A DNA stretch of 36,141 bases from an uncultured Acidobacteriota bacterium (GTDB lineage Bacteria > Acidobacteriota > Thermoanaerobaculia > Multivoradales > SZUA-115): assembly GCA_937867335.1 (NCBI GenBank), contig CALMKX010000084.1, positions 1 through 36,141 on the forward strand. Direction: 5' to 3'. The notes under the pieces were generated by a model. It did no database searches and had not been told where the DNA came from. It worked only from the letters and a program-made list of their open reading frames with translations. Positions 1-1,161 of the stretch are shown one piece after another. The position numbers and the translations under genes are program-made. Position 1 is the stretch's first letter. Each line of letters starts with the position of its first letter.

Positions 1-936
1 GACTTGGTACGCGCAAAGATTCGGCGGCAATGCCGGCATAGGGCCCCGGCTCATCACCGAAAGCCCCTGCGGAGCGAGCCCCAGCTCGGCCAGAAGTTCG
101 CTCTCCACCTCCTCCAACCAGAACTCGCCGAAGGATTCGACGTGGAATGGCAAATACAGAAAGGGCAAGCCGAGGGCCCGATAACAGCCGTTGTGCAAGC
201 GGGGAGAAAGGGAGTGCGAGACCGGGTTGCCGGCGATGCCGAAGAGGCTCTCGATGGGCCTCAGGCCGGGCAGGCCGAAGTCCTCGATCAGGGTGCGGAT
301 GGCCGGCTGACCGGGCGCGGCTGGTCTCTCCGCGAACGAGCCGTAGACCACCGGAGCGCCGAAGCGGGGCGCCAGGAGCCGAACCCAGCTGCCGAGCGCG
401 CCGGTGGGAAAGGCCACCACATCCCCCCGCCCGAGCCGGGCGAGAAAGGACAGCACGGCAAGCTCGTCGCCGTGCGTCGAAGCCGCCGGCACCAGCTTGT
501 AGAGGGCGGCGGAGGTTTCCTCCAGGCTCGCGAAGCGGCGGAAGAGGGCCCCGGCATCCGCCGCCCCGCCGTGCCAGGAGAGCAAGCGCTTCTCCGGCGG
601 GATGGCTGCCAGCAGCTGCGGGGAGAGATCCCGGGCCGCCTCGAGGTCGATCAGGTCGTAGCCGGCGGCGTGAGCGGCGAGGAGCGAGGCCTGCCGCTCG
701 AACGGTGCGGTTCCGCCCTCTCCGCCCTCGGCGGCGCTCCGCAGGGTGAAGAGGAGCTGCCGCCCGCTCGCCTCGCGCAGGCCCTGGGGCGAGGTCTCGC
801 CCAGCAGGTCCGCCCGTACCTCCAACCAGCGGACTTCCGGCGGCAGGGCCGCGAGCTCGGCCTCGGTGGGAAGCGAGGTCAGGGTCGCCACCAGGGTGGC
901 TTCCGACGTCGGGCGGCGCTGTGGGCTCAGCTGCAA
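1..936 (-). CDS. aroDE: Bifunctional 3-dehydroquinate dehydratase / shikimate dehydrogenase, 3' end cut by window edge
   Basis: The minus-strand frame is open from 939 to the left edge. The first ~220 residues match type I dehydroquinate dehydratase: LVATLT start strand, EVRADLL, FTLRSAAEGG, a His in SWHGG, a Lys in LYKLVP (Schiff-base position) and ERPAAPGQ. The next part begins a shikimate dehydrogenase: LFGIAGNPVSHSLSPRLHN, the shikimate-binding SHSLSP motif. Such fusions catalyse steps 3 and 4 of the shikimate pathway to chorismate, the precursor of Trp, Phe and Tyr. The start is one of two tandem TTG codons (939 or 936); GGAGGAG lies 5 or 8 bases upstream, and 936 has the better spacing. 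It is preceded by a Trp-type attenuator. The last ~15 codons (bases 1-45) no longer resemble AroE: the expected T-x-P-x-K segment after GLSV is missing, so a frameshift or assembly error at the edge is likely. Confidence 0.9.
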   Translation of the reverse strand, partial: MQLSPQRRPTSEATLVATLTSLPTEAELAALPPEVRWLEVRADLLGETSPQGLREASGRQLLFTLRSAAEGGEGGTAPFERQASLLAAHAAGYDLIDLEAARDLSPQLLAAIPPEKRLLSWHGGAADAGALFRRFASLEETSAALYKLVPAASTHGDELAVLSFLARLGRGDVVAFPTGALGSWVRLLAPRFGAPVVYGSFAERPAAPGQPAIRTLIEDFGLPGLRPIESLFGIAGNPVSHSLSPRLHNGCYRALGLPFLYLPFHVESFGEFWLEEVESELLAELGLAPQGLSVMSRGPMPALPPNLCAYQV

Positions 937-970
937 CAAAAAAGCTCCTCCGGGTTACCGAGAGGAGCTT
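935..970 (-). terminator. Attenuator terminator hairpin overlapping the aroDE ribosome binding site
   Basis: On the minus strand AAGCTCCTC (970-962) pairs perfectly with GAGGAGCTT (950-942) across an 11-base loop. A run of six T (943-938) follows, the classic shape of an intrinsic terminator. The Shine-Dalgarno sequence GGAGGAG of aroDE (951-945) forms most of the 3' arm, and the T run enters the TTG start codons. Folding would therefore both end transcription and hide the ribosome binding site. Confidence 0.88.
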
Positions 971-991
971 CTTGTCATCGCCGCTGGCGTT

Positions 992-1033
992 GTCGCTCGT
1001 CCCGGACCTTCGAAGGTCGGGACGAGTTGCGAC
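992..1033 (-). promoter_or_regulatory. Strong leader hairpin between trp leader peptide and terminator
   Basis: CTCGTCCC (1026-1019 on the minus strand) pairs with GGGACGAG (1003-996). The inner stem is GACC/GGTC around TTCGAA, and an outer GTCG/CGAC pairing sits beyond a small bulge. The hairpin starts 6 bases after the leader-peptide stop codon, where a ribosome finishing the leader would cover its 5' arm. The 3' arm GACGAGC could pair imperfectly (6 of 7) with GCTCCTC of the terminator, a possible alternative pairing. The exact antiterminator fold is not resolved. Confidence 0.65.
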
Positions 1034-1039
1034 CCCGAC

Positions 1040-1120
1040 CTAGGCCTTGGAATGCGCGTGGCCATGCCACCACCAATGGCTGGTGGTCGAGGCGGCGGCA
1101 GTGGCTACGAGCACGGTCAT
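1040..1120 (-). CDS. trpL: Tryptophan operon leader peptide (26 aa, Trp-Trp-Trp)
   Basis: ATG at 1120 opens a 26-codon frame ending in TAG at 1040. It is rich in Ala and Thr at the N-terminus and ends SHWWWHGHAHSKA. Three consecutive UGG codons (residues 16-18) in so short a peptide, placed between a promoter and a terminator hairpin, are the hallmark of ribosome-mediated Trp attenuation. Under Trp starvation the ribosome would stall on the UGG run and favour read-through into aroDE and whatever follows. The UGG run itself can pair with the upstream ACC-ACC-A codons (CCACCA/TGGTGG), giving a small hairpin within the coding region. There is no good Shine-Dalgarno sequence, and the likely transcription start is about 4-5 bases before ATG, so translation is probably leaderless. 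Confidence 0.88.
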   Translation of the reverse strand: MTVLVATAAASTTSHWWWHGHAHSKA

Positions 1121-1131
1121 GGTTCGAGGAG

Positions 1132-1161
1132 ATTAGAGCCCGGGGGCCGGGCTGGTGTCAA
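1132..1161 (-). promoter_or_regulatory. Promoter of trpL-aroDE
   Basis: The minus strand has a perfect -35 TTGACA (1161-1156), an 18-base spacer and a -10 TCTAAT (1137-1132). Expected transcription start is near 1125-1124, only a few bases before the leader-peptide ATG at 1120. Confidence 0.75.

Follow-up and report, generated by a model that had tools for sequence, protein, structure and literature searches.

The stretch of DNA analysed here (the window, 36,141 nucleotides, contig CALMKX010000084.1 of assembly GCA_937867335.1, from an uncultured Acidobacteriota bacterium of the class Thermoanaerobaculia) begins at a contig end with a truncated aroDE gene on the minus strand, which is preceded by a short leader gene with Trp codons and by a terminator. 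This arrangement raises the question of which amino acids such a leader would sense, and on behalf of which genes. A preliminary description, made from the sequence alone, read it as a ribosome-mediated Trp attenuator controlling either aroDE itself or a Trp operon with aroDE as its first gene. The promoter hexamers, the 26-codon leader with three tandem Trp codons, the intervening hairpin and the terminator with its 9-bp stem and six T residues were all found in the right order (Table 1), and the first structural gene was identified as a fused aroDE by NCBIfam matches to aroD and shikimate dehydrogenase, whose scores do not reach the curated cut-offs, as one would expect when a fusion is truncated (the reading frames of the relatives' aroDE are open over about 490-600 aa). 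Absent from that description were four His codons, which flank the Trp run in the leader, and the context of a 17-gene operon.

Table 1. Features of the leader region and of the first structural gene in the window
Feature	Position	Strand	Remarks
aroDE, first structural gene	1..939	minus	3-dehydroquinate dehydratase/shikimate dehydrogenase, cut by contig end
Intrinsic terminator	9-bp stem 970-962 with 950-942; T6 at 943-938	minus	direct sequence
RNA segment 4 CCGGAGGAGCTT + T6 tract	938..953	minus	intrinsic terminator
RNA segment 3 AAGCTCCTCTCGG	958..970	minus	5' arm of terminator
RNA segment 2 TCCGGGACGAGC	995..1006	minus	pairs with 1 (the 'strong hairpin' of the preliminary description) or 3 (antiterminator)
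Hairpin between leader and terminator	1026-996	minus	direct sequence
RNA segment 1 CTCGTCCCGACC	1015..1026	minus	partner is 0 (ON) or 2 (OFF)
RNA segment 0 GGTCGGGG	1033..1040	minus	at and just past the stop codon; pairs with segment 1
Leader peptide gene MTVLVATAAASTTSHWWWHGHAHSKA	1040..1120	minus	ATG 1120, stop TAG 1042-1040, 26 codons; translation
Four His control codons	CAT 1078-1076, CAT 1066-1064, CAC 1060-1058, CAT 1054-1052	minus	direct sequence
Three Trp control codons TGG TGG TGG (TGGTGGTGG)	1067..1075	minus	direct sequence
-10 hexamer TCTAAT	1132..1137	minus	18-nt spacer from -35; direct sequence
-35 hexamer TTGACA	1156..1161	minus	direct sequence

The two promoter hexamers agree with the consensus in 11 of 12 bases; the promoter scanner passed over the -10 hexamer because its rule requires an A at position 2. 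TTGACA stands at the equivalent place in four relatives (G012, G013, G015 and G016), followed by TCTAAT in G013 and by similar hexamers in the other three, at a comparable distance from the ATG. Transcription in the window is predicted to start at about position 1125 and, since the ATG would lie only ~5 nt downstream, the leader mRNA is probably nearly leaderless. Leaders with both Trp and His codons occupy the same place in relatives, and we infer that the leader frame of the window is translated. The window combines a short leader reading frame containing codons for product amino acids with a terminator between this frame and the first gene. For the RNA 1125-930 the folding energy is -100 kcal/mol, with z = -5.7, and no shuffled sequence does as well. 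The start codon of aroDE is probably a TTG in or beside the T tract of the terminator (934-943), with no obvious Shine-Dalgarno sequence, and the start (TTG or similar) seems to be placed likewise in G004, G009, G012 and G013. Searches of Rfam gave no relevant match in the window at the gathering score and none for this region even at E up to 10. Neither the Trp_leader (RF00513) nor the His_leader (RF00514) covariance model matched the window; the Trp_leader comparison proposed in the preliminary description was thus negative at gathering and lax thresholds alike.

The window lies at a MAG contig end (G000:C84), so nothing is present past position 1, and the genes following aroDE are visible in relatives. 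AroDE searches gave matches in 66 of the 72 genomes of the order, and the surroundings of the gene were taken for 60 loci of the order, most of which show the arrangement aroDE-his-trp. In at least 12 relatives, a supraoperon of 17 co-directional genes, aroDE-hisZGDCBHAF-hisIE-trpEGDCFBA, is present on a single contig (G009, G041, G042, G043, G013, G017, G046, G052, G064, G069, G044 and G067), and this gene order is contig-complete in many Thermoanaerobaculia; gene identities were assigned by NCBIfam for 10 proteins of G009 and nine of the window's own genome. The trp genes expected to run co-directionally with aroDE are thus found on the relatives' contigs, the window itself ending too early. 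The proposal of a Trp operon beginning with aroDE came close, in that trp genes do follow aroDE in relatives, but a his operon lies between them. Control of aroDE alone does not hold, as the relatives carry aroDE at the front of a full his operon and, after this, a full trp operon.

Two further contigs of the window's own genome carry the remaining genes, hisZ'-G-D-C-B-H-A-F-IE-trpE(N) on C288 and trpE(C)-G-D-C-F-B-A on C146. The breaks between the three unjoined contigs fall inside genes expected to be adjacent (aroDE'/'hisZ and the N- and C-terminal halves of trpE), and C84, C288 and C146 would accordingly form one operon. The C-terminus of AroDE was absent from the own genome in a contig search and was lost in the assembly gap. 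Contig C288 (L101) carries foreign sequence at both junctions, with a fragment of a polA-like exonuclease next to hisZ and SMC-like sequence next to trpE, and within positions 1-50 of the window the AroDE translation ceases to resemble the family over its last 40-50 bases; these three places are probably chimeric contig ends. Used alone as a query against the genome contigs, the window protein returned no relative, whereas an alignment of relatives succeeded, and named relatives put the genome in Thermoanaerobaculia (Acidobacteriota). The window DNA matched no plasmid record.

In some genomes of families f2 and f5, aroDE lies elsewhere and the leader is still found before hisZ, with peptides such as SSWWYGVHHHGI (G005, G006), LWLRWHHHGLS (G037) and WRGHWHHHVN (G036). 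Since the leader remains beside hisZ where aroDE has been relocated, we assign it to the his-trp operon, in which aroDE is a passenger at the head; a leader tied to aroDE itself was ruled out. No clear T tract accompanies the hairpins before hisZ in G003, G005 and G006 (L127, L128, L129), where the element may use another kind of termination or act on translation. Supraoperon leaders before aroDE include WWWHGVHHFGS (G009), WWHGVHHHGDF (G042), WWGFVHHHVE (G041), AWAWRTHHHHAVS (G069), CWRRSGHHHAVS (G012) and SWWAHGHGKG (the Ca. Multivorans group, G046 and kin), and in other orders of the class WHWHWHHG (G400), RHWHVHHS (G125, G491), HHHHWHWTVRR (G474) and THAHRHSTWAWPERR (G407). The last His codon precedes the stop by two or three codons in 37 of 40 leaders, the last Trp codon usually by seven to nine. 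The preliminary description had looked for conservation of the WWW peptide or of the hairpins: no single peptide sequence is kept, but Trp and His codons are retained across relatives, as are the pairing structures described below.

A covariance model built from 26 leaders, with matches accepted at E up to 0.1, found the element in 56 of the 72 genomes of the order, including the 26 model sequences, which match by construction; matches in other orders of the class were weak. The element has been lost from most genomes of family f4, which is without hisG. Weak matches (E about 0.001-0.01) also occurred outside the class; in G217, G386 and G325, the DNA retrieved around the match contained no genes for his or trp biosynthesis. 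On G468:C32 (L324), a divergent hisG-like gene is preceded, at a distance of ~110 nt, by a short reading frame, MAMTCHHHHHHHGHTPAGAR, possibly a separate His attenuator.

The codon composition of the leaders follows the genes of the operon. Operons with his and trp genes have leaders with Trp and His codons, aroDE-trp operons without his have Trp leaders from which the His runs are lost (WWFLRS, WWWPSSE, WWWSRRS, WWRLEKRR, WRWREATR, WYWYWSDTR, WWCVRSRS), and his-only operons have leaders with His runs. In f16 g40, where hisD is the sole surviving his gene, the leaders read GWWCWPVRR and GWRWPVRR. Four genomes of family f10 have a split operon, with a separate leader for either part: WWFLRS for aroDE-trp and QQHHHHHI for his in G311, and, for the trp and the his part respectively, WWWSRRS and TWHHHHHHVM in G449, LWWWPSSE and RHHHRHHHLV in G099, and LWWWRSRC and QHHHLAWHHRP in G289.

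For a count, the last 12 codons of 50 leaders from 35 genera were scored for His; separate his-operon leaders found later were excluded, except that of G112. At least two His codons were present in all leaders of his-containing operons (34/34) versus 3/16 of those without his (Fisher 1.6e-9, kinship ignored), or 26/26 versus 1/11 when counted per genus (3e-8, kinship likewise ignored). Adjacent His codons occurred in 30/34 versus 0/16 leaders, and at least one Trp codon in 45 of 47 leaders with trp versus none of three without. The leaders were collected with a filter for Trp or His motifs, which favours peptides rich in these residues, not their association with operon content. On a TrpE tree, the presence of his changed at least 5-6 times, with contrasts between his present and his absent within families f1, f3 and f16. 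In independent pairs, His content followed his in 4.4 of 5 and went opposite in none, which is not significant in a sign test resting on so few transitions (p 0.06-0.13). The exceptions are G003 and G039, without a Trp codon near the leader end although trp is in the operon, and G002, G010 and G011, which retain two or three His codons although his is absent. A lone hisD precedes trpE in G479, G319, G476 and G478 (f16 g40, after aroDE) and in G148, G268 and G466 (f13), which suggests histidinol use or another role of HisD. In G002 and G001 (L052, L093), a hutH-like (histidine ammonia-lyase) gene stands directly before aroDE-trpS, with no hisG match in either genome, and in G002 the attenuator lies between trpS and trpE.

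These data bear on three rival accounts. Were the element an attenuator for Trp only, as first proposed, the His codons would be incidental or structural, with CAC pairing to TGG and no sensing of His; TGGTGG and CCACCA are indeed able to pair, and the HGHG repeats of the Ca. Multivorans group could be structural. However, His is encoded by CAT 47 times and CAC 40 times in the relatives' leaders, so that conservation concerns the amino acid rather than the base, His codons are retained where his is in the operon and decay where it is not, leaders of his-only operons contain 5-7 His codons and 0-1 Trp codons, and G071, with trp on another contig, has lost its Trp codons and retains HHH. A structural origin of the His codons was ruled out by this alternation together with their link to the his genes, and we regard a response to Trp only as very unlikely. 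Conversely, in a His-type attenuator the Trp codons would be a relic or a context for slow translation. Operons with his always have His codons with anything from 0 to 3 Trp codons, and Trp codons are missing in G003, G039, G038 and G424, yet trp operons without his keep or raise their Trp codons (WWW, WWCW, WYWYW) and the window leader itself has WWW, which makes this account very unlikely. Finally, the peptide itself might act, by arresting the ribosome or in trans as proposed for the peTrpL peptide of S. meliloti; trans action of a Trp leader peptide has been published (PMC7298713). Here the order and spacing of Trp and His vary widely (WWWHGHAH, WWxxVHHH, WHWHH, HWHVHH, HHHHWHW) with their composition kept, which argues for sensing of codons and not for a peptide motif. 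Action through the peptide in place of codon sensing is highly improbable; an additional role beside it is compatible with the data.

The RNA structure was analysed in terms of five segments (Table 1), which can form two mutually exclusive folds, 0:1 with 2:3 (ON) and 1:2 with 3:4 (OFF). In the alignment of 26 leaders, 86% of the cells were paired for ON and 91% for OFF, compared with 38-66% when slid by 1-3 columns, and compensating changes support both folds. Pairing 2:3 involves 90% of the cells in the 26 sequences, with 995:968 being C-G in the window and G-C in most relatives, and 3:4 also reaches 90%; an antiterminator exclusive of the terminator is thus conserved with compensating changes. 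In a test that did not use alignment columns for pairing, native 0:1 duplexes had -13.9 kcal/mol versus -11.3 kcal/mol when swapped between species. Native duplexes were likewise better for 2:3 and 3:4, whereas the control combinations 0:2 and 1:3 showed no effect. Stable hairpins are common in GC-rich DNA, where 1.3 terminator-like sites are expected per 3 kb, and one might suspect a chance coincidence of hairpins and a reading frame. Chance is refuted by conservation across the order at equivalent positions with covariation, and a short reading frame ending with at least two Trp and two His codons was found in 33 of 40 upstream regions of the order, preselected for holding such a leader, versus 0.01 per set of dinucleotide shuffles; the probability of a chance origin is practically negligible.

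In folding predictions for the RNA preceding segment 4, a ribosome at a Trp or His codon gave mainly 0:1 and 2:3, on average over the 26 sequences with 7.7-7.8 pairs of 2:3 and 2.3 of 1:2, versus mainly 1:2 (3.8 and 5.8 pairs, respectively) with the ribosome at the stop codon; the untranslated leader was predicted to lie between the two states. For the window alone, the switch was weakly predicted (2:3 with 1.8 pairs at the His stall, 0.1 at the Trp stall and 0.2 at the stop), as equilibrium folding favours a very stable 1:2 hairpin in every state. Switching there, if it occurs, must rest on the kinetics of folding during transcription, and this is the main weakness of the interpretation. Strong switching was predicted for G012, G013 and G067.

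Ribosome-mediated attenuation through Trp codons is well supported by these results, and we conclude that the element is probably a transcription attenuator with two inputs, relieved by shortage of either Trp or His. RNA polymerase would transcribe the nearly leaderless leader gene with a ribosome trailing behind. A shortage of Trp-tRNA would stall the ribosome at the Trp codons, and a shortage of His-tRNA a few codons further on, at the His codons. Either stall would leave segment 0 free to pair with segment 1, releasing segment 2 to form the antiterminator with segment 3, and the whole aroDE-his-trp operon would be transcribed. With both amino acids plentiful, a ribosome at the stop codon would mask segment 0, so that 1:2 and 3:4 form and transcription ends before aroDE. 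The position of the control codons close before the stop is explained by this scheme, as a stall at either set frees segment 0 and only a ribosome at the stop masks it. The elements, the operon of the relatives, the conservation of both structures and the match between codons and genes are established from the sequences; ribosome stalling, the termination of transcription, a response to each of the two amino acids and the joining of the three contigs in the window's own genome are inferred.

The element resembles the E. coli trp attenuator (RF00513) in its tandem Trp codons, its alternative terminator and antiterminator and the trp genes downstream. It differs in the additional His codons, in having no Rfam match, in the aroDE and complete set of his genes in the operon, and in the control codons lying upstream of the switching segments, so that the masking ribosome is the one at the stop codon. 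The leader of the Salmonella and E. coli his operon has 7 His codons. With that attenuator (RF00514) the element shares a run of His codons and his genes downstream, but there are 2-5 His codons here, with Trp codons in the same leader and again no Rfam match. A single leader is read for more than one amino acid in the ilvGMEDA, ilvBN and thr operons of enterobacteria. In these, the amino acids belong to one branched pathway, whereas Trp and His come from different pathways, which have PRPP as a common substrate and, in this case, also one operon. The list of operons under attenuator control in PMC1183508 includes ilvGMEDA, ilvBN and thr, and the his attenuator is described there as alternative helices that follow one another in a chain, with an additional hairpin ahead of the terminator, as is the case here. 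The trp attenuators of Streptomyces and Corynebacterium, which precede trp operons or trpS and have been described for Trp alone, likewise have two or three UGG codons and a GC-rich terminator with a T tract, outside Proteobacteria (PMC1262725). In Sinorhizobium meliloti, the trpL mRNA begins at the leader ATG (PMC7298713) and is thus leaderless, as predicted here from the transcription start; unlike the window leader, trpL encodes 14 aa before trpE(G) and is described for Trp only. In open-licence papers, we found no Trp/His leader and no aro-his-trp or his-trp supraoperon with a leader, which would make this, within that literature, the first attenuator found with codons for both amino acids. 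Tyr/Phe-rich leaders also occur in the class: LRAYYYGFYT (G342:C6:56453-56546(-)) and PNWFYYGYYT (G112:C27:1128-1230(-)) precede chorismate mutase-DAHP synthase genes and are candidate Tyr/Phe attenuators, so that attenuation seems to be a general habit of the class.

Taken together, a 17-gene aro-his-trp operon is probably governed by a single cis-acting attenuator that combines information on Trp and His supply and whose leader codons were repeatedly fused, split and retuned to the gene content within the class. The phylum is one in which gene regulation has been little studied, and the supraoperon joins two biosynthetic pathways. Fused, split, his-less and his-only versions among the relatives make it possible to test leader codon content as a direct evolutionary record of what the operon does, and for uncharacterised operons of Acidobacteriota the leader peptide could serve to predict the targets. 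If the proposed mechanism is correct, starvation for either amino acid would open both pathways together with the shared aromatic step, and the element would be a bacterial cis-acting counterpart of cross-pathway control.
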